63,195 nucleotides of DNA, from positions 1 through 63,195 of the forward strand of contig JAISHD010000006.1 in NCBI GenBank assembly GCA_031262705.1, in the 5' to 3' direction. This DNA comes from Methanocalculaceae archaeon. GTDB taxonomy: Archaea; Halobacteriota; Methanomicrobia; Methanomicrobiales; Methanocorpusculaceae. Every line of letters begins with the position of its first letter. The first letter of the stretch is position 1. Positions 2,449 to 62,945 of this stretch are shown here, one piece after another. Under the pieces are notes generated by a model, which saw only the letters and a list, made by a program, of their open reading frames with translations, searched no databases and was not told the origin of the DNA. The position numbers and the translations under genes were made by a program.

Positions 2449-4643
2449 AAAAATATTTTTTTTATTTTTATCTGCGCAGCGTTCCAAGCACCGCCGCACC
2501 GCAGACGATCAGTCCCGCCCACCAGAAGACCGACGGGGACTCGGTTGGTGACGGCGGAACGGTTGTGGAGACCGTGGTCACCGGTGTGGTCTCTGTTGAT
2601 TCAGGTGTCGGTGTCTCCGTCGGCTTTGGTACCACGTCAAACGTTGCGGAAGAACTTGTGGAGACGGAGACACCCGAAATCTTCACGGTATAGGTGTCGG
2701 CGGAAAGTATCGATCCGTCCACGGAAAAACTCCAGGAGTTGTCGGGAGACCCTTTTACCACCGCAACCGATCCCGCGGTTCCGTATGATGATACAGGATC
2801 ATTTTTGCCGGAAGGAACAAAGGAGGCGGGTACAACCTCGACCAGCAGTTTGTCCTGCGGCGCAAGATTTGTTCTGCCGGACACGACAAACAATTCCCCG
2901 AGATACCGAGTGCCGACCGGCGTGATCTCAATGTACGGCGACTGCACGGTCAGGGTCAGCGTGGTGTAGAGATCATCGATGTAGGGGGAGGCAAGCATCT
3001 TTACCAGAGCGTTCGCTGCCTGAGGACCCTGCAGCCGGCCGGAGCCTTCCACCACAAACGAACGCTGGGTTCCGCCGCCCGGAGCTACCATCGCGAGGAC
3101 TGTTTTGCCGTCCTGATGGATCTCCTGCACGCCGAACCTGCCGTCGTTCATGGGGTGTTCAACCACTACGAAGTACTCGCCTGCGGACATGCTTTCCGGA
3201 ATTGCCATCCAGTAATCGTACCCGCCGTCGTTCACCGAAACAGTTCTGCGTTCATAGTAGTTTGAACCGAAGATGAAGATCGCAACCGTGGACGGGCTGC
3301 CGGTGACGGTTCCGGTGATGTGTACGGTGTCGCCTTTGGCTGCGGCAAACGATGATGTTGTGGTGCTGAGACCCGGCTGTTTCAGCTGCACGGGGTAGGT
3401 TGCATACTGGGTGCCGGAGAGGTGGGACTTGTCGTTCATCGTGCTGACCGCGTAGATGGTGTAGGCGCCCGCGTCAAGACCGGTTGAGCCGGTGTTCCAC
3501 CGGTACTCCCAGGTGTGATCGGATTTGACGGAGACTTTGGTGAGTTCGCCGGATGCACGTGTTGCAAGACTGACACCGTTGGAGTTCAGGTTCGGGCCGG
3601 TGAGGAAGAGGTAGGTGGTGTCGGAGTCGGTGTTGGTTCCGGAGAGCCGTATTTCTTCCCCGAGATAGTAGGTGTTCTTGGAGTCGGATGCGGTCATGCC
3701 CATGCCGCCAACAGTTATTCTGATGCTGACCCGGTCATAATCGCTTCCTTTTCCGGCTACTGTTCCGTAGTCAACGATGTCGTTTATCCGGATGGTGTAG
3801 GAACCTTCCTCGACCGGACGACCGCTTACGGGGCTGGTGGAGTACTGAACCACCCGTTTTCCGGAGGCGTCGGTGGTGACAACACCCCATGAGTTCGGAT
3901 CGCCTGCTGCACCGTCGGGAAGCAGGACGGATTTTTCACCGCCACCGATGCTGACCTTTGGATTTTCCGAGCCGCGGACAACACCGGGCTGGCCTGCGAT
4001 CAGCTGCGGGGCCGGGCTGCGGCCCGCGTCAAGAGTGATGAGGTAGGGGGTGTTCGGCAGACTGCTGACGGTTACGGTGAACGGATTGCTCCGGACAACG
4101 GTTTCACTGCCGGTTGTGAGCGAAATTCCGGTGCTGCTGCCGAGGTAGTAGGTGACGGTGTTGGATTTCTTTGCGTAGTTGGCAAAGACCTGCGGCGTTA
4201 TCCACTCGGCGCGGGAGGTGTAGGTTCCGCCGCGCAGGGCGGAGTCGGCAAGAGAGATGTCACGGGTTGTGACACGGACGGAGTTGATATCGATTGAGGA
4301 AAGGTCAGCGGATCCGAGCATGGTGGTCTGGCCGCCAACAGGTGTGGTTACGATGATCTGCGCTTTTGCGCCGATGCCGGACGGGCCTACCTTGGGAGAG
4401 TCGATGATGTAGTGGATGCTGCTGCTTTTGCTGACGGCTTTGCCGTCCACGGAGTCGGTGGAGCCTGCATACTCGGCACGGAGGATGAGATCAGGCTGCC
4501 AGATGTAGAGGTAGCTGCCGGTCCATTCACTGCCGTTATAGATCCGATAGGCACCGGTATAACCTCCAACAGAGATATCCAAGAGATTGATGACGCCGTT
4601 TGTATCCGCCTGAATGGTGTTGAGAGCAGTCGGGCTTGCCGAT

Positions 4644-4681
4644 CCGCTCATATAGGAGATGGCCGCTCATATAGGAGATGG
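4644..4681. repeat. 19-bp perfect tandem duplication causing a frameshift
   Basis: CCGCTCATATAGGAGATGG occurs twice in immediate succession (4644-4662 and 4663-4681). Nineteen is not a multiple of three, and loss of one copy joins the two halves of the surface-protein gene in frame. Confidence 0.95.
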
Positions 4682-5012
4682 AGGTCGCGGTACGGCCATC
4701 TTCGGTTATATTTATCCGGATTTTTTCATAGACGAAGGCGGTACTGCCGGGATACACGGTTCGGGCATCGCTGCTGGTAAGGGGATAGGAGTCGGCAGTC
4801 CCGCCGGAGAGGTATTGTGGAAGTGGAGCGGATGCGGGCTGTAGTTCTTCCTCCTGCGACTGAGAAGATGCTGCGCCAGCCTTTTCAAGAGCTTCACTCT
4901 GTACAGTCTGTATTTCGGGGATGAGATTTTTTATGTCATTTCCACTCTTCGGAAAAGAGAGTTTACTTGTGTCGGAGTACTGTTTCTGCTCCGGAGATTC
5001 TTGTCCGTCGGT

Positions 5013-5130
5013 CGTCTCTTCAGGTGACGGAACTGTTGTGGACACAGTTGCAGGCACGACAGTCGCTTCAGGTGACGGAACCGTTGTGGACGCAGTTGTA
5101 GGAACGACAGTCGCTTCAGGTGACGGAACT
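5013..5130. repeat. 48-bp tandem repeat encoding a Pro/Thr/Ser stalk
   Basis: About 2.5 copies of a 48-bp unit; TTCAGGTGACGG recurs at 5019, 5067 and 5115. Because 48 is a multiple of three, the repeat is translated in frame as TTVPSPEATVVPTTAS-like units, a probable O-glycosylated spacer of the surface protein. Confidence 0.9.
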
Positions 5131-5286
5131 GTTGTGTTCTTCACAGGGGGAAAAATCTCCGCCGTCCCGTCTTCATCAGCCGCAGCTCCCACAGCGAAAA
5201 GCAGCGCAAAAACGATCAGCACACACACATATTTTCTCAGGGACACATTTTCTCTCCGAAATTTACTAAAAAAATAGATGACAGGA

Positions 5287-5299
5287 GAGTATAAAATCC
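5287..5299 (-). promoter_or_regulatory. TATA box for the surface-protein gene
   Basis: On the minus strand it reads GGATTTTATACTC, a good archaeal TATA box about 45 bp before the GTG start at 5246. It supports the GTG over upstream in-frame ATGs, which would lie upstream of this element. Confidence 0.55.
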
Positions 5300-5313
5300 T
5301 GCGGGTGGGGGTA

Positions 5314-5775
5314 TTATTCTTCCTTTTTTGCAGAAATACCGGCAATAGAACAGCTTGCCCCGCACTGCTCCTTGACAACATCAGGAATCACACGATAGGC
5401 ATTTGCCAGAACCGATGAGTTCGCAAGAAGTCCGGCAACCAGCACCGCCTCTAAAATCTCCTCTTTCGGGATACCCATCTTCTTTGCCACCTGCATGTGA
5501 TACGCCGTACAGTGATCACAGCGGAGTGCAGCCCCCACTGCAAGGCTGATCAGCTCGATCACCCTTGGTTCCAGACTACTCATCTGATTCACCGCATTCT
5601 TGTAGAGAAGATGTGAGATCAGCGCCTCAGGACAGTCCTCAAGCTTTTTGTAAATTAACGGGGCTGTTCCGTACTCCTCCTCGACACGGGCCAGCCAGTC
5701 CGCCGCTGTTGCTTTCGCACCCTTCGTCTCAACCTCACGGATGGCCTCCTGAAAATCCAAATCAAACTCAACCAT
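5314..5775 (-). CDS. Carboxymuconolactone decarboxylase (AhpD-like) family protein
   Basis: 153 residues, all-helical CMD fold. The AhpD-type motif is RCDHCTAYH at about residues 86-94, i.e. a CxxC followed by a histidine, which in AhpD-like members acts as a thiol peroxidase or disulfide reductase site. It begins 3 nt after the end of mmp7 and is the last gene of the methanogenesis-marker operon, so a role in redox protection or thiol chemistry around MCR activation is plausible but inferred. The C-terminus has two further cysteines (EQCGASC). Confidence 0.8.
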   Translation of the reverse strand: MVEFDLDFQEAIREVETKGAKATAADWLARVEEEYGTAPLIYKKLEDCPEALISHLLYKNAVNQMSSLEPRVIELISLAVGAALRCDHCTAYHMQVAKKMGIPKEEILEAVLVAGLLANSSVLANAYRVIPDVVKEQCGASCSIAGISAKKEE

Positions 5776-17832: not shown

Positions 17833-18681
17833 TTAAATTGATCGGAGATCCGAAAACCATACAGCCTCGACAGCAAGTACAGATGTTTTTTCTGCATAGT
17901 CGGGATTCTTCCGGAAGTTGAGGTCTTCAAGTTCAAACGTCACCAGTCCCGCATATTTTGCTGCGGCAAGTTCTTTTTTGAGTCGCTCACCCGCGGAAGT
18001 TCCGGCGAGCGGAGTGTGCATCATCTTTTCGGTTCCAAGGCTCGCATGAATGTTGACCATTCGGTCTTTGCAGTCGCGGAGAAACGCGAACGGATCGTTT
18101 GGCAGTGCTGCCTGTGCATGCGCATAGTCCCAGGTAAAAGAAAGCCATGCGTACTCATCCAGAACTCCGCGTACCGAATCAGGCGTTACCAGCTGGGCGT
18201 TTATTGCGGGAGGCATGTTTTCGATTGCAACGGTAACATCTGTACCGAATGCACATCTGGAGACAGTGTCCAGATAGGTGGAGAGACGCGCACGATCCAG
18301 CGGACCGACCGGACGTTTTGCCGTCCGTTTCCCCGGATGGATAGTGACCACACCACCGCCGAGCTGATCCAGCATCTCAATGGTTTTACAGGTATACTCA
18401 GCCGAAAGTTTGGCGACACCGGGATTAAACGAACAGGGATTGAGATCAAAAATCGGCGCATGCATAGCGATGGGTGCAAGGCGCGGGTACTGGTTCATCA
18501 GATCGCGCAGCACCGAAGAGTCTGCGCCCTGCATCCAGAACTCTGGTGTTTCCATCCAGAACTCGATATGATCCAGTCCCGCGGAGTCCATCGCAGAGAA
18601 TATTTCTGCGGGTTGATACTCGTGGAAGAACATACTGGATGCGCCAAGCCGGATCATGGTGATCAGATAGGTTTCTTTCAT
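17833..18681 (-). CDS. TIM-barrel protein of the sugar phosphate isomerase/AP endonuclease 2 family
   Basis: 282 residues (274 if started at the second ATG, 18657, MIRLGASSMFF). Barrel features include the strand end EFWMET, the metal-ligand type segments TIHPGKR, VAIENMP, FTWDYAHAQ and VNIHASLG, and EDLNFR. This matches the xylose isomerase-like superfamily containing endonuclease IV and sugar epimerases. Archaeal members are mostly uncharacterised. It diverges from xseA with only about 40 bp between them, so promoters overlap. Confidence 0.75.
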   Translation of the reverse strand: MKETYLITMIRLGASSMFFHEYQPAEIFSAMDSAGLDHIEFWMETPEFWMQGADSSVLRDLMNQYPRLAPIAMHAPIFDLNPCSFNPGVAKLSAEYTCKTIEMLDQLGGGVVTIHPGKRTAKRPVGPLDRARLSTYLDTVSRCAFGTDVTVAIENMPPAINAQLVTPDSVRGVLDEYAWLSFTWDYAHAQAALPNDPFAFLRDCKDRMVNIHASLGTEKMMHTPLAGTSAGERLKKELAAAKYAGLVTFELEDLNFRKNPDYAEKTSVLAVEAVWFSDLRSI

Positions 18682-26992: not shown

Positions 26993-27333
26993 TCCAGTGA
27001 TATCAGAAAGTCTGTCCGACAGAAAAAACGAATCTGTTGGCCAATTCGTCCGACTGAAACATGACGCCCCATCATGTTTGATGCTGGGAGTTACGCACTT
27101 GCATACTCACCAATTCGTGGAAATACATGTATCCCCTGTCAGGCAGACTTTTTTCTGTCACCGGAGAGTAAACGAAAAATACCGAAATACATTTGTTTTT
27201 CTCCGTAATACCTCTTCATTAAGAATAATTCATTCCTCCCTCGCAATAGCAAATGACTATATTTTGACTATGCAAATTATATTTATTGACTATCAATATA
27301 ATTATATCTATCCATTGGAAAACTTGTAATCTA
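26993..27333. other. Intergenic region, low G+C
   Basis: 341 bp, more A/T-rich than its surroundings, especially 27170-27330. TATA-like ATAATTATATCT near 27297-27308 lies about 30 bp before the ATG of the RHH gene. No ORF or RNA identified. Confidence 0.4.
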
Positions 27334-27766
27334 ATGGCGGGCAGTACCCGGAAGCATCCCCCGGATCAGATAAACTTGCGGCTCGGTGCCGATTTCATTC
27401 AGAAGTTCAATGAGTACATGAGAGAGCGGTCAGAGACAAAGATCCAGTTTATCCGTTCTGCTCTGGAGTACTGGATGTTCTGTGGATGGAGACAAGGAGA
27501 AAATTGGGGAAAAGCTTCAGCTGGCAGAACAGGTTATTGTACTTCAGCGGGAGAGAATTGACGAACTCCGCACATTTCAGGAAAGATGTATCGCATATCA
27601 GCGTGAGATCATCCAAGAAAAAGACAAAAGAATTCGATATCTCACTGAGCAGCTGAGAAAAAATCTCAAAACAGACACTTATTACTCAGACGGCCTGCTT
27701 GAGGAGCCTGCCATTGCCGAATCGGAGCCTTCATACCACAACCCGGACACTACCACGGAAAAATAA
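27334..27766 (+). pseudogene. Ribbon-helix-helix DNA-binding protein with coiled coil, frameshifted
   Basis: Frame 1 from ATG 27334 encodes an RHH-type DNA-binding domain (DQINLRLGADFIQKFNEYMR, KIQFIRSALEYWM). After about codon 47 the sensible reading switches +1 to GDKEKIGEKLQLAEQVIVLQ and on through a long coiled coil (RERIDELRTFQERCIAYQRE) ending NPDTTTEK at 27766. Frame 1 itself ends at 27561 with an unlikely tail. A single-base indel between about 27465 and 27485, or two overlapping genes (GTG start at 27482), could explain this. Likely a small transcription factor, perhaps self-regulating. Confidence 0.6.
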
Positions 27767-41123: not shown

Positions 41124-41787
41124 TCAGAAAAAATCCGCGAGACTCTGTTGGGAAATGCGGGCAATGATCTCATCCACCGTCTTCCATGTCCGGCGGGCAC
41201 ACGACGGCGGGCATCCGTGTTCGTGGATATATCCCTCAAGAAACCGGATCGTCACCGGGTCTGACGGATACCCGCTGCCGAGGTTTCCAAATTCTTTGGA
41301 AAGTTCATCAACCAGCCGGTCGCGGGTAACTTTTGCCACGATGCTGGCCGCCCCCACAATCAGAAATTTGTCGTCTGCTCTATGCTCGGAGATCATCTGA
41401 AGCCCCGGCATGCCGGACAGATCACGCACACTGAATCCGAACCGTGCGGCATTCACATCGCAGGCATCCACATATGCCGTGTCGGGCGGGCACAAGGGAC
41501 CGGATCACCGCGGCATGACAGGACGCGGTAAATGCATTCATCGTTCCCGGCCGTGCATCGATCTCCTCTGGAGTCTTCACCACGACCGCGGTCTTCCATC
41601 GCTTGGTGATCTCTCCGTACAACTCCTCGCGCCGGTGCGGTGTCAACTGTTTTGAGTCACGGAGACCAAGACCCTCCAACTCTGCTGCGTCTGCAACCAG
41701 CACTCCGGCTGTCACCACCGGCCCGAGAACCGAACCTTTGCCCGCCTCATCAACCCCGCAGATGCTCATCTGATCAGTATCTATCAC
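41124..41787 (-). pseudogene. rnhB: Ribonuclease HII, frameshifted in the middle
   Basis: Frame 1: ICGVDEAGKGSVLGPVVTAG with catalytic DE, LRDSKQLTPHRREELY, up to AVIRSLV. The frame then shifts to CPPDTAYVDACDVNAARFGF and continues with the catalytic-Asp-bearing remainder to ISQQSLADFF. All active-site residues exist, in two frames. One extra base (in CTTGTGCCCGCC on the minus strand, near 41490-41500) accounts for the shift. Removes RNA from RNA/DNA hybrids; probably inactive unless this is a sequencing error or recoded. Confidence 0.85.
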
Positions 41788-43651: not shown

Positions 43652-44860
43652 TCACTCAAACAGTGGGTCGACTCCATCCTCGAACATTGCAGTATGCGAC
43701 CGCTCACGGGACTTCACAACCTCTTCCTTTGCCTCTTTTGCAAGCTCCATTAGCTCGCGGATACGCGGGGCGTCACCGATCGTTGCAAGCAGAACAACTG
43801 CTGCAACATATCCGCTGTCCACCGGATAGTCACCACCACGGACCTCAACGCCTGCGATGTTTTCTTCAACCCAGCTCTTGGACTTCTCAACACCTTTCCG
43901 GTCAAGTTCGCTCGGCGGGCCTGCAACCAGTACAAGAGCACGCTCTGCAGTTGAGTAATCACAGGGAAGTGTCAGGCGGCCAAGCATTGAACGGCGAACC
44001 AGACCGATGATCTTTGCGGACTTGTCCTCGCCGGATGCAATGTCCACATGCGGCTCGGCCTTCTTTTCTTTCTTGCCGAGGATCCCGGAGAGGAGACCGC
44101 TATTGCTGTCCTTCTTTGAGGACGACTTGCCACCGCTTTTTGTCATCGGGATCGCCTCGCTGATGGCGTAACCGACTGAGGAGATTCCTCCACCGCGGAG
44201 TGTGTTGATGATTTCACTGGAATCGACAACCATCTCACCAACACCATACTTGCTGACCTCGCCTGCATGGAACAGAACACCGAACCGACGGACAATTTCC
44301 TCATTGAGGCGCTCGTATGCGCTCTTCACACTTTCGCCGTCGTTCTTCCAAGCACTGTTGTCGAACACGATAACATTGTCCGCTTCGTTGACCAGCGTTG
44401 AAAGACTGCGTGCTGCATTTAAAGAATAGAGACGTCCTTCCTCGGGAGCAGGAATGACACCGACCGCGTACACCGGCTCGCGGTAAATACGTTTTAAATG
44501 ACGGCAAAGAACCGGTGAACCGCCGGATCCTGTTCCGCCGCCAAGACCTGCACATACAACGAATGCGTCGATGTCGTGCGTGCCGCGGCGGTCGATTGCA
44601 CTAATAATAGTGTCAATCTCATCTGCTGCTACTTTTGCACCAGTCACGTTGTCGGTACCGACACCGTGGCCTTTAACCATTGTCTGACCGATCAGGAGAC
44701 GATCTTCCATGGGAATGTTCTTAATTCCCATCAGATCGGTCCGGGCCGTATTGATAACAATACCGCGGAAACTCGTAGATCCTAACTTTCTGTCCTGTGC
44801 AAGGAACATATCCACAAGTTTGCCTCCTGCCTGTCCGAATCCTATAAAAAATACCCGCAT
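43652..44860 (-). CDS. CetZ/FtsZ-like tubulin superfamily GTPase
   Basis: 402 residues. N-terminal nucleotide-binding FFIGFGQAGGKLVD, tubulin signature AGLGGGTGSGGSP near 105-117, and VIPAPEEGRLYSLNAARSL and DNVIVFDNSAWK typical of the archaeal non-FtsZ branch (CetZ-like, which controls cell shape). A 40-residue Lys/Ser-rich insertion (near 260-290, SGGKSSSKKDSNSGLLSG) interrupts the C-terminal domain. Promoter in the divergent spacer with the flavoprotein gene. Confidence 0.8.
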   Translation of the reverse strand: MRVFFIGFGQAGGKLVDMFLAQDRKLGSTSFRGIVINTARTDLMGIKNIPMEDRLLIGQTMVKGHGVGTDNVTGAKVAADEIDTIISAIDRRGTHDIDAFVVCAGLGGGTGSGGSPVLCRHLKRIYREPVYAVGVIPAPEEGRLYSLNAARSLSTLVNEADNVIVFDNSAWKNDGESVKSAYERLNEEIVRRFGVLFHAGEVSKYGVGEMVVDSSEIINTLRGGGISSVGYAISEAIPMTKSGGKSSSKKDSNSGLLSGILGKKEKKAEPHVDIASGEDKSAKIIGLVRRSMLGRLTLPCDYSTAERALVLVAGPPSELDRKGVEKSKSWVEENIAGVEVRGGDYPVDSGYVAAVVLLATIGDAPRIRELMELAKEAKEEVVKSRERSHTAMFEDGVDPLFE

Positions 44861-44981: not shown

Positions 44982-46229
44982 ATGAAGATCGGTATTCTCG
45001 GTGCAGGCCTGACGGGACTTGCCGCTGCACAACGTCTGGCAAAGGCAGGAGAGGTCGTTGTATTTGAGAAGAGTGCAGTCGCCGGAGGATGTCTTTCCTC
45101 CAAACAGTACGGAACCTATACACTGGAAACCCTGTACCACCACTGCTTCTCCGGAGATACCGAACTCTTTTCCCTTCTGGAAAACCTCTGCCTCAAAGAG
45201 GATCTGATCTGGCTGAAAGGATCGACCGGCTACTATATGAACGGAGTGCTGCATCCGCTTACCACACCGGTAGAGATTCTCCGTTATCCCTGCCTCAGTT
45301 TTTTGCAGAAGGCACGACTTGGCATGTTCGTCTTAAGTTCCCGCAGGATAGATATGGCGGCGCTTGACAACGTCACCGCAAAAGAGTATCTCTACGAAAA
45401 AGTCGGTGAAGATATCTATGACGCCTTTTTCGCTCCGCTTCTTGCAAGCAAGTTCGGCAAGGTGAAGGATGAAGTATCCGCGGCCTGGCTGATGAGCAGA
45501 ATTGCGATCAGATCTGACCGCGGAGCGGAAGGCGAGCGGCTCGGGTACCTGAAAGGCGGCTGGCACCGGCTGATCGACGCCATGGTGCAGCAGCTTGAAG
45601 CAGCCAATGTGGATTTTCGGTTTTCCACACAGGTTGATGCACTCCGGCTTTCGGACGGAAAATGGAACATTAACGAGGAGGAGTTTGACGCAGTTGTATC
45701 CACCCTTCCGCCGCAGGTGACGAATTCACTGATGGATGAGGCAACCGCAGAACAGTTCTCCCTGCCCGAACTTTCCTATCAGGGGGCTGCCTGCATGACG
45801 CTGGGGCTCGCCCGCGATCCAGCGGCAGGAATTTACTGGACCAACATGGGCGATCCTGCACCCTACGGAGCGGTGGTTGTTCACACAAACTTTGTCCCCT
45901 ACGACTGGTACGGCGAGCATGTGGTGTATCTTGCCTCGTACTTCAAGGACACACCGGCAGCCGACCTCAAAGAGAGGATGATCGACGACTTCTGCAGCAG
46001 GTTTGGAATCGGAAAAGAGATAATTCATCACGCCGACCTGTACATCGATAAATTCGCGGGTCCCGTATATGTGACCGGCTACCGGAACACTATCCCAAAT
46101 ACCGATGCCGGACACAACCTGTTCATCGCCGGCATGTACTCGGAGGAGAACTGTCCGGAACGGAGCATGGAAGGCTCTATTCGTGCAGGACACCGCGCAG
46201 CTGCCCTGCTTGAGGAGAAACTTTCGTGA
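44982..46229 (+). CDS. FAD-dependent oxidoreductase (amine oxidase/protoporphyrinogen oxidase-like)
   Basis: 415 residues with the dinucleotide-binding GAGLTGLAAAQRLAKAG and VVFEKS at the N-terminus and a second FAD segment NLFIAGMYSEENCPERSMEG near the C-terminus. Overall like NAD(P)-binding flavoproteins of the UDP-galactopyranose mutase and HemY class. It overlaps the following GT2 gene by 4 nt in a surface-glycan cluster, so an enzyme acting on a sugar nucleotide or polyprenyl intermediate is likely. Confidence 0.78.
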   Translation: MKIGILGAGLTGLAAAQRLAKAGEVVVFEKSAVAGGCLSSKQYGTYTLETLYHHCFSGDTELFSLLENLCLKEDLIWLKGSTGYYMNGVLHPLTTPVEILRYPCLSFLQKARLGMFVLSSRRIDMAALDNVTAKEYLYEKVGEDIYDAFFAPLLASKFGKVKDEVSAAWLMSRIAIRSDRGAEGERLGYLKGGWHRLIDAMVQQLEAANVDFRFSTQVDALRLSDGKWNINEEEFDAVVSTLPPQVTNSLMDEATAEQFSLPELSYQGAACMTLGLARDPAAGIYWTNMGDPAPYGAVVVHTNFVPYDWYGEHVVYLASYFKDTPAADLKERMIDDFCSRFGIGKEIIHHADLYIDKFAGPVYVTGYRNTIPNTDAGHNLFIAGMYSEENCPERSMEGSIRAGHRAAALLEEKLS

Positions 46230-46942
46230 ATCCCATACAAATCACCGTAGTGCTGCCGGTCTATAATGATGTGGAGGCACTGAAGTCTGCAATCCCGAAA
46301 TCCCTTGAGGCTTTGACAGAGTTCGGCAGAAGTTTTGAACTGATTGTTGCCGAAGACGGGAGCACTGACGGCAGTCGTGAGCTGGTGGAGGATTGGGAAC
46401 AGAAGGACCCGCGTGTACGGCTGCTGCACAGCGATGAACGGCAGGGACGAGGGCGTGCACTGAACCGTGCACTTGCAGAATCGCACGGCGTGATATTCTG
46501 CTATTATGATGTGGATCTTGCAACCGACATCAACTATCTGCCCGAACTTCTGACGAGAGTTGAAAGCGGGGCGGCGGTTGCAACAGGGTCGCGTCTGATG
46601 CCGGAGAGCAAAATTATCCGGAGCGGCGACCGGGAGTTTGCAAGTCGCGGCTACAATACGCTTGTAAGACTGTTTCTTGGCAGTAAACTCCGGGATCATC
46701 AGTGCGGGTTTAAGGCGTACCGGGCCGATTTGCTGCGCGAACTCGTCCCGAAGATTCATGCGCCGCACTGGTTCTGGGATACCGAGTCGGTGGTGCTTGC
46801 ACAGCGTGCAGGACTCCGGGTTGATGAATTTCCGGTTGTCTGGACTCAGGGACCGGGGACGACGGTCCGGTTCAAGGATGTGTACGGGATGGGAATGGAT
46901 ATTCTGAAAATGTGGTGGCGGCTGCATGTGGAAAAAAATTAG
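46226..46942 (+). CDS. GT2 glycosyltransferase, dolichyl-phosphate type, copy 1
   Basis: 238 residues. GT-A fold: ITVVLPVYNDVEALKSAIPK, VAEDGSTDGSRELVEDW, metal motif YYDVDLATD, RSGDREFASRGYNT and LRDHQCGFKAYRADLL, and the acceptor-side WFWDTESVVLA. Matches polyprenyl-phosphate hexosyltransferases that make lipid-linked sugars for surface glycosylation. Starts on the overlapping ATGA-like junction of the preceding gene. Confidence 0.85.
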   Translation: MNPIQITVVLPVYNDVEALKSAIPKSLEALTEFGRSFELIVAEDGSTDGSRELVEDWEQKDPRVRLLHSDERQGRGRALNRALAESHGVIFCYYDVDLATDINYLPELLTRVESGAAVATGSRLMPESKIIRSGDREFASRGYNTLVRLFLGSKLRDHQCGFKAYRADLLRELVPKIHAPHWFWDTESVVLAQRAGLRVDEFPVVWTQGPGTTVRFKDVYGMGMDILKMWWRLHVEKN

Positions 46943-47906
46943 TGCTGTTCTGTTTCCAAGTCTCATCGCTGCTGGCCTGATTGTGTTCATGCTCGTGAGA
47001 GTCTGGGATGATCTGCTGGTTGCGGTTCAGCATCTGGTTCCGCTCTATCTCATCGCAGCGATTCTGATCTGTCTTGCCGCATGGTATCTGCGCGGATGGC
47101 GGCACCAGTACATTATAGAGAGGCTGGGAACCAAAATTGGTCTTAACTTTTCCACGGCCTGTATCTATGTTTCACAGACAGCAAACCTTGTCATTCCCGC
47201 ACGTCTTGGTGACTTTGTCCGGCTGTTTATTCTGAAACACGAGAAGGGAACACCCTATACGAACGGGTTCACCTCAGTTGTTGCAGAACGCGTGTATGAT
47301 GTCGTCATCATCGCGGTTCTCGGGCTTCTTGCACTGCCGATGCTGGTCAGCCTTGCTCCTTCATGGTTCGTCTGGATGATCGTCTTTGTTCTGGGTGCGG
47401 GGGCAGTCTTTTTCCTGTTGCTTCTTCTCTCACGCAGGCTGCATGCAGAGAATAAAATCTTCAAAAAAATTCTGGAGGTTTTGGGTCAGCTCCGGCAGGT
47501 CTCCTCAACACCGGGATCGCTTGCGGCTCTGTCGATATCGTCCGCGGTCATCTGGATGATGGATGTGACCATCTGTTATCTTGTCTCGCTGATGTTCGGG
47601 GTTACGATTCCGTTTATGCTGGTGCTGCTTGCAATTGTGATCGGCAACCTCGTCAAAGCCGTCCCGATTACTCCCGGAGGAATCGGGACGTACGAGCTGG
47701 CGCTTGCGATCACGTTTGAGATCGGCGGCGTGCCCGCGGCGACGGCGACCCTGATTGCGGTGGTGGATCATCTGATCAAGAACCTTGTTACGCTTGCCGG
47801 AGGAGTTGTGTCCCTCTACTACTTCGGTGACTGGGCGGTGTCGCTGCTGAAGCGGCTGTTCCGTGAGGATGCAAAGAAGCTGAAGGAGGAGCATGGTTCC
47901 TCCTGA
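46926..47906 (+). CDS. LPG synthase-like flippase-type membrane protein (UPF0104)
   Basis: 326 residues, about eight helices. Features of the UPF0104/AglD-associated family: ARLGDFVRLFILKHEKG near 95 and PITPGGIGTYELALAITFE near 245. Often encoded with GT2 enzymes in archaea and thought to move or modify polyprenyl lipids. Overlaps the GT2 gene by 17 nt. Confidence 0.8.
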   Translation: MWKKISAVLFPSLIAAGLIVFMLVRVWDDLLVAVQHLVPLYLIAAILICLAAWYLRGWRHQYIIERLGTKIGLNFSTACIYVSQTANLVIPARLGDFVRLFILKHEKGTPYTNGFTSVVAERVYDVVIIAVLGLLALPMLVSLAPSWFVWMIVFVLGAGAVFFLLLLLSRRLHAENKIFKKILEVLGQLRQVSSTPGSLAALSISSAVIWMMDVTICYLVSLMFGVTIPFMLVLLAIVIGNLVKAVPITPGGIGTYELALAITFEIGGVPAATATLIAVVDHLIKNLVTLAGGVVSLYYFGDWAVSLLKRLFREDAKKLKEEHGSS

Positions 47907-49899
47907 AGCACAGATACTGACGGTCATTCTCTGGCTGATAGTAGTGAAATTCTGCCAGATGGCCGTCTATCCGTATCTGAAGCCGGCGATCGGCAACCTT
48001 TCGTATGGTCTTGCCTATCCCTTTTCCATTCTGGTGCTGACCTTTGTTACCTGGTATCTGGGTGTGGCCGGCCTTCCGGTACAGCTCGCACTCCTGCTGT
48101 TCGCGGCAGCAGGTGTATATGCCATTGTTTCAAAGCGGTATGACCGAACGGAGATCCGGCAGAACCTGAAGGGATCTGGTGTTCCTCGGCGCATTTCTCC
48201 TGATGCTCATCTCGCGCTTCCTGACACCGGGAATTATTCCGAGCGGCGAGAAGTTCATGGACGCAGCGTTCCTCGGAAGCATTATGCTGGACCCGGCGGT
48301 TACCCCGCTGGACCCCTGGTATGCGGGGGGCGAACTGTCCATCTACTATTATCTCGGTCACTGGATGTGCGGGGTGCTCGGCATTTTTGCAGGCGGTGCA
48401 CCGACGGTTGTGTTTAATCTGATGCTGCCGACCGTGTTTGCACTTGCGGCCATTTCGGCGTATGCAATCGGAGTTCTTCTTCTAAAGCGGCATTAGTGGA
48501 TTCCGATGCTGGTTCTGATCCTCCCCAATGCCGCCCTTATCTGGCACACGATTGCGGGCGGCGGATCGCTCGGCATCTGGTGGGCGTCAACACGGGTAAT
48601 TGAAAATACCATCAATGAGTACCCGCTGTTCTCGTTCCTCTGGGGAGACCCGCATGCCCATGTGCTCGGCTGCTTTAATCAGCTGTTCTTCCTGTGTCTG
48701 CTTGCGGTGATGCTGGTCAGATGGAAGCTGCTGCCGGCGGGAGGAAAGTATCTGCTTTGCGTGATTCTTGCGCTGTCGCTTGGGACGATGCCTGCAATGA
48801 ACTCGTGGGATGTGATGGTGTATGCCGGCGTGTATCTCGTTGTTGCCGCGGTGATCTGGCTGATGCACGGACACAGCCTCCGCGATGCGGTGCGGTGCCG
48901 CTTGCACTGGTGCCGGTTCTTTCGCTTGCGTCCTATGCGCCGTTCCTGTACACGATGCTGTCCGGCGGCGGGTCCAGTGTCCAGGGATTTTTCCTGGTGA
49001 CCACCCCCTCACCGATCAACGAGTTCCTCGGCGTGTATCTGTTCTTTGTCGCGGTGTTTGTCATCTACGGATTTTCGGTTCTGAAAAAATATCCGTGGCT
49101 GATTGCAGTGCCGGTGATCTTTGCGGTTGCCGGGTATGCGAGTGCGGGGGTTGCGCTGTTCTGTATTCTGCTGCTGGCCGGAAAACGCAGCACGGCACCG
49201 GAGGTGCTGTTCGGGATTCTCGGCATGGCGATTGTGTTCCTGATGGAGTTCATCTATCTGAAGGATTACATGGGCGATGTGAACTACCGGATGAACACGG
49301 TGTTCAAGTTCGGATTCTGCGCCTGGTTTATGCTCGGGACCTCGGTGCTTCTGATGATTGGCCGGTATGCGGAGAGCCGGTTTGCAGAGATTCCCAAAGG
49401 CCGGGCTGTTGCGGTTGCCGCGGTGATTTTTGTGGTGCTTGCGGCGCTGATAGGATTCTGCGGGATTCAGCTCGGGTATCCGGGAGGGACACTGGACGGC
49501 TCGGCATGGCTGGAGAGCCACCATCCGGCGGATGCGGCAGGCATTGCGTTTCTGACCGGCGCTGCCTCGCCCGGCGAGATCGTGGTGGAAGCGGCGGATG
49601 GATCGTACGCGTACAACGGCCGTGTCTTGGCGATGACCGGACTCCCGACGATTGTCGGCTGGGTCGGACATGAGTCGGGATGGCGGAGCGGCGTGGGTGA
49701 TGCGGGAACGCGGTGGAGTGATGTCCGGAACATCTATGAGGATCCGTCCCGGACCGTTTCCCTGATGGACAAATACGGCGCGAAATATCTGTTCGTAGGC
49801 GATGTGGAGCAGGAGTTGTACACCGTGAACCTGCCGGACGAGGGCCTCGCCGAGATCTTTGCTGCGGACGGCGTGAGTATTTATCAGCGCAGCAACTAA
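47893..49899 (+). pseudogene. DUF2298 membrane protein with three lesions
   Basis: Reassembled, about 666 residues of multi-pass membrane protein. Segment 1 runs from ATG 47893 to NLK. An extra G (GGG at 48171-48173) shifts the frame to LVFLGAFLLMLISRF, where GEKFMDAAFLGSIM and PWYAGGELSIYYYLGHWMCG are the family's typical motifs. A TAG at 48494-48496 interrupts it. A 5-bp duplication (TGCGG twice, 48887-48896) then shifts it to PLALVPVLSLASYAPF, which runs to 49899. DUF2298 proteins sit with glycosyltransferases and are probable membrane glycan enzymes. As read, non-functional. Confidence 0.85.
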
Positions 49900-49900
49900 C

Positions 49901-50644
49901 GTGTTAGAGAGAATGGATCATCCCGTACTTACCATTGTAATCCCGGTCTATAATGACGCGGCTGCCCTTCGGGCTGCGGTGCCCGCATCGGTGGAAGTAC
50001 TGGAGGGTCTTGGGCTGCCGTTTGAACTGATCCTCTGCGAGGATGCAAGTACCGACGGCAGCCGGGAAGCGGCAGTTGCGCTCGCCGCAGCGGACGACCG
50101 CATCCGGGTCAACCACAGCGATGTCCGGCGGGGAAAAGGCGGCGCTCTTTCCGATGCACTTGCGGCATCGCACGGAGATATCTTCTGTTTTTACGATGTG
50201 GATCTCTCGACGGATCTTGCGAATCTGCCAACACTTATTGATAAAATTCAGGCAGGTGCAGACATTGCTGTCGGATCCCGGTTCCTTGCGGAAAGTACGG
50301 TACTGCGTTCCGGGGAACGCGAGGCAACCAGTGTCGGGTTCAACCGGCTGGTGCGGCTGCTTCTTGCAAGCAGCATCCGCGATCATCAGTGCGGATTCAA
50401 GGCGTTCCGCCGCGAACGGCTTGTGAAACTGATGCCGTATGTGCAGGCGCGCGGGTGGACCTGGGACACCGAGGTTCTCGCACTTGCGCAAAGATGCGGC
50501 TATACTATTGAGGAGATTCCGATAACGTGGACGCAGGGCGAAAAGACGAATGTGCGAACCAGCGACATCTTTTCGATGGGCTGTTCAGTGCTGCAGCTTG
50601 CCTGGCGGATACGCATTGCGGGCCGGTATCCAAAGGACATCTGA
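49901..50644 (+). CDS. GT2 glycosyltransferase, dolichyl-phosphate type, copy 2
   Basis: 247 residues from a GTG (MLERMDHP), or 243 from the ATG at 49913. Same motif set as copy 1: LTIVIPVYNDAAALRAAVPA, CEDASTDGSREAA, FYDVDLSTDL, IRDHQCGFKAFRRERL, and WTWDTEVLALAQ. The paralogues flank the flippase and DUF2298 genes. Different acceptor or sugar specificity is likely but not determinable. Confidence 0.85.
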   Translation: MLERMDHPVLTIVIPVYNDAAALRAAVPASVEVLEGLGLPFELILCEDASTDGSREAAVALAAADDRIRVNHSDVRRGKGGALSDALAASHGDIFCFYDVDLSTDLANLPTLIDKIQAGADIAVGSRFLAESTVLRSGEREATSVGFNRLVRLLLASSIRDHQCGFKAFRRERLVKLMPYVQARGWTWDTEVLALAQRCGYTIEEIPITWTQGEKTNVRTSDIFSMGCSVLQLAWRIRIAGRYPKDI

Positions 50645-50689
50645 CTCCGTGTCCGGCGGAGATGTCCAAACCTTTATGCCGGACCCTCA

Positions 50690-50700
50690 CCCATATATAG
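50690..50700 (+). promoter_or_regulatory. TATA box of the eL8 operon
   Basis: CCATATATAG, preceded by a Pu-rich stretch, is the clearest promoter in the spacer. It predicts a start near 50722 and a leader of about 70 nt before eL8. Confidence 0.5.
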
Positions 50701-50794
50701 AGTTACGCCAGCAACGGTCTGTTACCTTACCAGTAGAGCCGCTGATGAGCGATGACGGATGGTCTTTGAACCGTCCCGAGTGAAGTGAGTCATT

Positions 50795-51163
50795 ATGGCA
50801 AAGATTTACCAGATGTTTGAAGTCCCTGAAGAACTTCAGAACAAAGCACTTGAAGCTCTTGAGCTTGCACGTGACACCGGAAAGATTAAGAAAGGCGCAA
50901 ACGAGGCAACCAAGGCCGTTGAGCGCGGAACCGCAGCTCTCGTCCTGATTGGTGCTGATGTTGCACCCGAAGAGATCGTCATGCATATTCCGGGACTTGC
51001 AGACGAAAAAGAGATTCCGTTCGTTTTTATCAACAAGCAGGCAGACATCGGTGCTGCATGCGGCCTTGACGTCGGCTGTACTGCTGTTGCAATTGTTAAA
51101 GTCGGCAAAGGCAAGGAAATCATCGAGGACCTTGCAGGCCAGATTAAGGCACTCAGAGGATAA
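50795..51163 (+). CDS. rpl7ae: Ribosomal protein eL8 (L7Ae), k-turn binding
   Basis: 122 residues: [60 protein letters not shown] are diagnostic. Besides the ribosome, archaeal L7Ae serves C/D and H/ACA guide RNPs and RNase P. First gene of the eL8-eS28-eL24-ndk operon. Confidence 0.96.
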
Positions 51164-51168
51164 ATACC

Positions 51169-51378
51169 ATGCCTGATGATGCAACGCCAGCAGAAGTCAT
51201 TGAGGTCATCGGCCTTACGGGTATGCACGGAGAAGCATCCCAGATCAAGTGCCGTGTCCTTGACGGCCCGAACAAGGGGAGGATTATCACCCGGAACACC
51301 TTCGGTCCGATCCGTGAGGGTGACATCCTGATGCTCCTTGAGACAGAACGTGAAGCAAAGAAGCTCTCAAGACGGTGA
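51169..51378 (+). CDS. rps28e: Ribosomal protein eS28
   Basis: 69 residues: [20 protein letters not shown] and [23 protein letters not shown] at 51169; 7 nt before eL24. Confidence 0.95.
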
Positions 51379-60956: not shown

Positions 60957-61262
60957 GGAACGAGTCGTGCGCGGGAGGGGATCTGCCTTGCCGCAACAGC
61001 TCTCTTTTTTACCGAATCTTTTTTTCCATAAAATCTTTGTGGAGTCAGGGATGGGGATTTCAGACATGGCCCGGTGAGTTTGAAGCGGGGATATCCTGCG
61101 TGAAACTCCAAAAATCAGTCCGATTTCCTGATTTCTGAGAGAGACATCTTTAAGAAACCCCAGGGGTAACTACCATAGCGTAATACGTGTGGTGTCACGA
61201 GTGTGTCGGACATTTGAGTATTCCTGTAAATTTCCTCCCCGTACAAAATAGGAGTGTGGTCT
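60957..61262. other. Intergenic region before the SSF transporter
   Basis: 306 bp. T-rich segment near 61002-61036 (CTCTTTTTT, TTTTTTTCC) for termination. AGGAG at 61248-61252 is the ribosome site of the next gene. No gene seen. Confidence 0.5.
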
Positions 61263-62945
61263 ATGGGCTTAGAACAAATAAGCGAGTTTTTCGTCAACAA
61301 TCTCGTTCTGCTGATTGTTGTGGTCTATATGGCGATGATGATCGCCATCGGATACTTCGTCCAGCGTAAGGGTGCGGATAAAAGCGCAGAAAATTACCTG
61401 ATCGCAAACAAGGGCGTAGGACCTCTTATGGTCGGCGGCACGGTTTTCTCTACCAACTGGTGCGGCGGGGTGCTGCTGGGAGCTGCCGGAACGGCATATA
61501 TGGGATATGTGGTGTCCACGATTGCTGATCCGTGGGCTACGTGTCTGACACTTGTGCTGATGGCGGTTTTCTTTTGTGCGATTCTGCGCAAGCTGAAGAT
61601 TGCATCTCTTTCGGAGATGTACCGGCTCCGGTTCGGTAAGCGGGGGGCGACGGTTGCGACGCTGATGTGTATTCCGTCGATGATTACCTGGACTGCGGCG
61701 AATATTGTTGCACTGACGACCATTTTTAAGCTCTTTTTGGATTTTGATCCGCTGATCTGTGCGATTATTGCCGGTCTGATTGTTGTGCTGTATACATATC
61801 TCGGAGGTATGCTTGCGGTTGTGTATACGGATAATATTCAGGCGGTGATGATTATGCTTGGTCTGATCATTCTGATTCCGACCGGTATTGCATTTGTCGG
61901 CGGGTTTGATGCACTGGCTGCGGCGACGCCGGAGAATTTCTGGAACCTTCTGCCAAACGATGGTGCGGGAGCGGTTTTGACGGGATTCACGGTGGATCCG
62001 CTCGGCATCTTCACGTGGCTTGCAGGTCTTTCGGGGATGGGATTTGGGTATCTTGCGTCGGTTGAGCTGACACAGCGGGTTTTGTGCGCCCGTGATACGA
62101 AGGCGGCCCGTCAGGGTCTGCTTCTCGGGTCGGGCATGTATGCAATCGCGGGATTTTTTTCGATGATGATTGCCCTGATTGCAATTGTGATGGTTTCACA
62201 GGGTGCAACAACGCCGTCCGGCGTTCCGATAGGTGAGCTGCTCGCGGAGGACGGAAACTATGTGCTGCTGGTTCTTGCGGAACGGTTGTTTGATCCGAGT
62301 GTGATGGGGGTTGTTGGTGTTGTGCTGATGGCGATTTTCATCGGGTCTCTGCTTGCGGCGATCATGTCAACGTCAAGTTCAACGATCTTTGCGGCGTCTG
62401 CGGCTCTTTCGACGCTGATGCTGCATGGTTCGCTGTCGAAGTACGCAACCACGTCTCTGCAGGTGCTGCGGCTGACGCGGATGCTTGTGCTGGTGATAGG
62501 CGTCTTCTGTGTGTTTTTCAGTTTTGTCATAGACAGTCTGTACTGGATGATGATCTTTTCGTTTACAATCCTGTTCAACTGCATGTTCTGGGCGCTGGTC
62601 GGCGGTCTGTTCTGGAAGCGGTGCAATGCGTCGTCGGCGATTGCTTCGGTTCTGGTGGGTTTTGCGGGGGTTGTCATCTGCATTATTGCCCAGTCGATCT
62701 ATTTCGGTCAGATTGCGATTGAGCCGCAGAATAATCTGTGGATTGGTATTCAGACGTTTGTTCCATGGGTGCTTGGCGGTGTTGCGATGCTGGTGACTGC
62801 GCTTCTGACGCAGAAATCGGATCCGCCGGTGGCGTTGTGCAATACGGACGGGGAGCTGGTGAAGTGGGAGGATCTGCCGCTTTCGGCGGATACTGTTGCG
62901 GTGCGCAGACACATTGAGGAGATGAAAGCACGGGAAGAAGAGTGA
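61263..62945 (+). CDS. Sodium:solute symporter (SSF) family protein
   Basis: 560 residues from ATG 61263 (MGLEQISEFFVNNL), chosen for the AGGAG site at a spacing of about 10. About 13 helices, with FSTNWCGGVLLGAAGTAYMG in the first part and LGGMLAVVYTDNIQAVMIML in the LeuT-like core. Imports a solute with Na+; substrate (for example proline, pantothenate or a sugar) not determinable. C-terminal tail is charged (RRHIEEMKAREEE). Confidence 0.88.
   Translation: MGLEQISEFFVNNLVLLIVVVYMAMMIAIGYFVQRKGADKSAENYLIANKGVGPLMVGGTVFSTNWCGGVLLGAAGTAYMGYVVSTIADPWATCLTLVLMAVFFCAILRKLKIASLSEMYRLRFGKRGATVATLMCIPSMITWTAANIVALTTIFKLFLDFDPLICAIIAGLIVVLYTYLGGMLAVVYTDNIQAVMIMLGLIILIPTGIAFVGGFDALAAATPENFWNLLPNDGAGAVLTGFTVDPLGIFTWLAGLSGMGFGYLASVELTQRVLCARDTKAARQGLLLGSGMYAIAGFFSMMIALIAIVMVSQGATTPSGVPIGELLAEDGNYVLLVLAERLFDPSVMGVVGVVLMAIFIGSLLAAIMSTSSSTIFAASAALSTLMLHGSLSKYATTSLQVLRLTRMLVLVIGVFCVFFSFVIDSLYWMMIFSFTILFNCMFWALVGGLFWKRCNASSAIASVLVGFAGVVICIIAQSIYFGQIAIEPQNNLWIGIQTFVPWVLGGVAMLVTALLTQKSDPPVALCNTDGELVKWEDLPLSADTVAVRRHIEEMKAREEE

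Follow-up and report, generated by a model that had tools for sequence, protein, structure and literature searches.

Probable recent inactivation of a putative GT-C glycosyltransferase gene in a lineage of Methanocorpusculum

The DUF2298 gene and its operon

The window, i.e., the whole stretch of DNA analyzed here (63,195 nucleotides), belongs to a draft genome placed in Methanocorpusculum on the strength of its named relatives, among them M. parvum, M. petauri and Ca. M. faecipullorum. The draft comprises 1.34 Mb in 84 contigs and is 78.9% complete, with a reported contamination of 0.79%. An operon with a disrupted DUF2298 gene lies between the genes for CetZ and ribosomal protein L7Ae, with the following features.

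43652 to 44860, minus strand: CetZ (tubulin-like), intact; flanks the operon as a conserved boundary
44982 to 46229, plus strand: flavin amine-oxidase family gene, first in the operon, intact; omega 0.26
46226 to 46942, plus strand: GT2 glycosyltransferase, intact
46926 to 47906, plus strand: flippase-like membrane protein (PF03706 / TIGR00374), intact; omega 0.41
47893 to 49899, plus strand: DUF2298 gene (PF10060 / TIGR03662, Chlor_Arch_YYY), disrupted; intact 667-aa orthologs in relatives
between 48170 and 48171, plus strand: lesion 1, 2-bp deletion (AT) with frameshift, from the alignment with four relatives
48494 to 48496, plus strand: lesion 2, C to T change turning CAG (Gln) into a TAG stop; CAG in 4/4 relatives
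48886 to 48890, plus strand: lesion 3, 5-bp tandem duplication (TGCGG/GCGGT) with frameshift, from the alignment with relatives
49901 to 50644, plus strand: second GT2, intact, paralogue of the first; present only in the clade of the near relatives
50795 to 51163, plus strand: ribosomal protein L7Ae gene (rpl7Ae, named from sequence), the other operon boundary

The order CetZ, amine oxidase, GT2, flippase-like gene and DUF2298 was observed in operon-bearing genomes with a readable flank, and the same order was found in G025, from a sister genus; in this survey, G009 and G006 were interrupted by contig ends or rearranged. A 165-aa open reading frame (ORF) at 50687 to 51184 on the minus strand was rejected as a gene, since its odd omega indicates that it is merely the antisense of the L7Ae gene.

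The region from 47893 to 49899 was found to encode one DUF2298 protein read in three pieces. These pieces scored 120.9, 105.8 and 68.7 bits against PF10060 (cutoff, 27.8), and the intact M. petauri ortholog scored 565.7 bits against TIGR03662 (cutoff, 300.25), which places the gene in the DUF2298 / Chlor_Arch_YYY family by the curated cutoffs. The YYYLG motif was invariant in 20 orthologs and occurs as IYYYLGHWM in the second piece of the window gene, matching the YYYxG pattern; E120 and D141 (M. petauri numbering) were also invariant among the orthologs, and either may be a candidate for the catalytic acidic residue that GT-C enzymes, which use a lipid-phosphate sugar donor, carry in their first outer loop. 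Searching the organism's own genome returned this sole DUF2298 locus, with matches at 48149 to 48868, where one TGA and one TAG are included, and at 48889 to 49335. DUF2298 matches were obtained in 53 of the 61 genomes searched; the copy of G031 is divided across contig ends, and that of the draft genome G022 shows an apparent frameshift near residue 75. A DUF2298-like match with four in-frame stop codons was also seen in a Methanogenium cariaci draft (L098, 3001 to 4947), and the Haloferax volcanii genome contains a PF10060 match as well. Our search of the literature on DUF2298 function gave nothing useful.

We compared the gene at the nucleotide level with those of the four nearest Methanocorpusculum genomes, which show 93, 92, 91 and 80% nucleotide identity and in all of which the gene is uninterrupted (668 codons including the stop). 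Exactly three disabling differences were observed in the window. The number of lesions given in the earlier note was thus borne out, but the kind of the first one was not: where an extra G had been read at 48171, the alignment shows the loss of 2 bp, which shifts the frame in the same direction (relatives, CTGAAATGGGATCTG; window, CTGAAGGGATCTG). The TAG that the note had reported was confirmed, as was its 5-bp tandem duplication. Since the two indels sum to +3, which is the net length change across the gene, the original frame is restored after 48890. Read from its start codon, the gene gives about 93 native residues and then a foreign tail that ends at residue 174; the first break precedes the YYYLG motif, the central DPHAH motif and the C-terminal part. 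A frame that is open in close relatives is thus disrupted in the window, as expected of a pseudogene. Decoding of the TAG as pyrrolysine was rejected, given that no PylC-like match was found in the 79%-complete genome and that the four close relatives have CAG. Ancient-DNA damage was rejected as the source of the lesions, an excess of C to T changes being absent.

Selection and lesion background

Codon models were fitted to five genomes with our own script, using a nucleotide-based codon alignment for DUF2298. The omega of DUF2298 was 0.0857 on the window branch versus 0.0854 on the other branches, and this branch test of five genomes gave no sign of relaxed selection on the window branch. Indeed, omega = 1 was rejected there (2dlnL, 44). 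The upper 95% bound on omega was about 0.175 (by interpolation), so that at most about 10% of the branch can have passed without constraint; DUF2298, if dead, thus died recently. Loss of function early on the window branch, with drift ever since, would fit the lesion count and the raised rates at which, as described below, two neighbors (the flippase-like and amine oxidase genes) evolve. However, the rejection of omega = 1 and the exclusion, at 95%, of a neutral fraction above about 10% rule out such old neutral decay, and we give this explanation almost no credence.

When missense and lesion counts were considered jointly, under assumed indel rates, the best fit was obtained with 5 to 7% of the branch being neutral, with moderate tension. 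Three lesions without extra missense changes require a short neutral period and some luck. A mixture of strains, each with one inactivating mutation and joined by the assembly into one sequence, could in principle account for multiple lesions in the absence of the missense changes that neutral decay brings; however, the reported contamination is low, and we consider such a mixture very unlikely.

The earlier note had suggested looking for relaxed selection in the neighboring glycosyltransferases. Both GT2 genes evolve at the lineage-wide rate, but other neighbors were faster on the window branch: compared with a lineage mean of 0.137, omega was 0.41 for the flippase-like gene (P = 0.01) and 0.26 for the amine oxidase gene (P = 0.047). 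This mean, taken across 36 genes, compares with 0.078 for G008 and 0.088 for G004, hinting at weaker selection in the lineage. The strongest shift in the window was seen in a very conserved 563-aa gene (61254 to 62945, plus strand), with an omega of 0.71 on the window branch versus 0.012 elsewhere.

The lesion background was estimated by comparing about 345 kb of the genome, window included, with the proteins of the single-contig genome G015. The lesion list behind this rate was compiled by hand, and paralogue and start-site artifacts, which recur identically in G004, G008 and G005, were removed. In this sample, about 11 of 189 genes carried 16 lesions. The rate elsewhere in the 189 comparable genes was 0.068 per kb, from which 0.14 lesions are expected in DUF2298, with a probability of 4e-4 for three or more; we observed three lesions of different kinds inside 720 bp. 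Moreover, the lesions were clumped by gene, two genes having three or more (P = 2e-4 under an even spread). The tested tRNA-synthetase genes of this genome were open, as were its translation-GTPase genes save for one weak match in two pieces.

A second multiply broken locus (L103, contig C4, 10930 to 13963) pairs a ZnuB-like permease gene, interrupted by a stop and two apparent frameshifts, with an adjacent ZnuA-family gene in which 19 bp are perfectly duplicated in tandem. A UbiB-like kinase gene (L117, contig C18, 18056 to 19697) carries two frameshifts, near 18445 and 18914. These multiply hit genes, of which ZnuA was named by Pfam and the ZnuB-like and UbiB-like genes from sequence, look accessory. 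A SufC-like ATPase gene (L107, contig C8, 12038 to 12763) has an in-frame stop 22 residues before its end. Within the window, rnhB, encoding RNase HII (41124 to 41787, minus strand), is split by a 4-bp tandem insertion at about 41483 to 41490; each of the 12 near-complete congeners has the gene with an open frame, and a second copy was not found in the genome of the window organism. It is speculation that losing RNase HII could in turn increase the rate of indels. A 160-aa ORF (27286 to 27763, plus strand), conserved in G004, G008 and G005, has an additional T at 27478 in the window and an omega of 0.68 on the window branch. Finally, a surface-type protein that M. petauri encodes in a single 1032-aa ORF is interrupted in the window (2468 to 5381, minus strand) by a 19-bp stretch that is perfectly duplicated in tandem at about 4644 to 4681. 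This is probably the broken surface protein that the earlier note had set in parallel with the DUF2298 lesions; the split itself was recovered, but nothing ties the protein to the operon.

Some of these observations would be consistent with an assembly or sequencing artifact, the gene being intact in the organism and the draft consensus being in error for at least one of the three lesions. DUF2298 appears fully constrained, lesions aside, and genes on the same contig, among them the near-universal rnhB, are split by short tandem insertions. About 11 of the 189 sampled genes carry lesions, whereas the corresponding regions of G004, G008 and G005 showed no breaks peculiar to one genome. The abundance of short tandem duplications (4, 5, 19 and 19 bp) might also reflect how this genome was assembled. 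However, window-specific indels were not more common than in G008 or G005 (17 versus 20 and 17), there was no C to T excess, and the lesions were clumped per gene instead of being evenly spread. Furthermore, short-read consensus errors seldom take the form of a 5-bp duplication or of a 2-bp deletion outside a repeat. We infer that the lesions are probably biological rather than assembly errors, an artifact being the less likely but serious alternative.

Operon loss in other Methanocorpusculum genomes

Orthologs of DUF2298 and of the flippase-like protein co-occur or are both missing throughout the genus; neither occurs in seven congeners, of which two have a completeness of 90% or more. In four of these seven (G002, G007, G010 and G019), which form one clade in the CetZ tree, CetZ lies about 370 bp from rpl7Ae, corresponding to a clean deletion of the operon. 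G016 (L071, 9200 to 11000) retains a decayed remnant of the whole operon: the amine oxidase gene has stops, a frameshift and a large deletion, the GT2 and flippase genes are reduced to scraps, and DUF2298 is represented by its first 175 residues only, in two frames with stops. CetZ (94%) and rnhB, adjoining this remnant, are intact. In G013 (61% complete), which stands beside G005 in the CetZ tree, different DNA was found where the operon was expected. The operon has thus been lost at least twice and probably three times, the window aside.

These losses show that the operon is dispensable, and they raise the prior probability that the lesions in the window are biological. Inactivation of DUF2298 in the window would represent the first discernible step in the loss of an operon already gone from other congeners. 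The earlier note had proposed that the surface-glycan pathway may have been abandoned. This is unproven from DUF2298 alone, but it is plausible for the window lineage because of the operon losses elsewhere in the genus. More tentatively, the surface-sugar operon may have been lost independently three or more times in Methanocorpusculum, with the window at the first stage of such a loss and perhaps with repeated selection against the surface structure.

Predicted fold, proposed function and known systems

A search of the PDB by sequence with the intact DUF2298 ortholog returned no match. The M. petauri ortholog, whose structure was predicted with confidence (pLDDT, 88.4), had as its credible top matches in the PDB only GT-C enzymes (Stt3, AftA and PglB), with ALG3 and PMT ranking lower. 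E values ranged from 4.7e-6 to 1e-3, at 10 to 14% identity and moderate TM-scores of about 0.26 to 0.49, consistent with a multihelix GT-C membrane fold in the predicted model. The DUF2298 gene product thus probably attaches sugars to cell-surface molecules.

Together with the neighborhood, this predicted fold suggests that the operon is a "charge, flip, transfer" module. The GT2 enzymes would charge polyprenyl phosphate with sugar, the flippase-like protein would help to move the lipid-linked sugar to the outer side of the membrane, and the DUF2298 protein would pass the sugar to a surface acceptor. Truncated after about 93 native residues, without YYYLG and most membrane helices, DUF2298 would fail in this final transfer, while the remaining operon genes would stay readable despite the break.

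The three hits had been taken in the earlier note as an argument for true loss of function. They do exceed the genome background, but the number of lesions cannot by itself establish true loss, because DUF2298 shows no relaxed selection and other genes, including rnhB, carry lesions too. We nevertheless favor, as the probable explanation, that the gene, of the GT-C glycosyltransferase type, was truly inactivated in this lineage of Methanocorpusculum, and only very recently. In favor of it are the three lesions versus 0.14 expected, their clumping, the operon losses in congeners, the open tRNA-synthetase genes, the co-occurrence of DUF2298 with the flippase ortholog and the matches to GT-C folds. 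Counting against it are the lack of excess amino acid changes and the lesions in rnhB and in the SufC-like gene.

Finding a pseudogene in a draft genome is nothing unusual; the value of this case lies in finding the same operon intact, freshly hit, decayed and cleanly deleted across one genus. Such a series of states across species forms a natural series for studying the role of this putative surface modification and the reasons why some methanogens drop it. In addition, the predicted GT-C-like fold suggests a concrete, testable function for a family labeled only as DUF2298.

Among known proteins, those of PF10060 / TIGR03662 resemble the window gene in sequence, length and YYYLG motif, but the window copy has three lesions whereas the four nearest relatives have intact full-length copies. 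By predicted fold, the GT-C enzymes Stt3, PglB, AftA and ALG3 are closest to the intact DUF2298 ortholog, which differs from them in its low sequence identity and in having no PDB match by sequence. Pseudogene-rich genomes are found in ciliate endosymbionts such as Methanocorpusculum sp. MCE (reviewed in PMC12662959), which has many disrupted genes, as in the window lineage. In Haloferax, AglD, AglR and AglS provide for polyprenyl phosphate charging, flipping and transfer outside in S-layer N-glycosylation (PMC3871713). The window operon, with its GT2 and flippase-like families, would follow the same logic as this Haloferax volcanii system, to which it is likened by its proposed function; unlike AglD/AglR/AglS, it includes an amine oxidase family gene.
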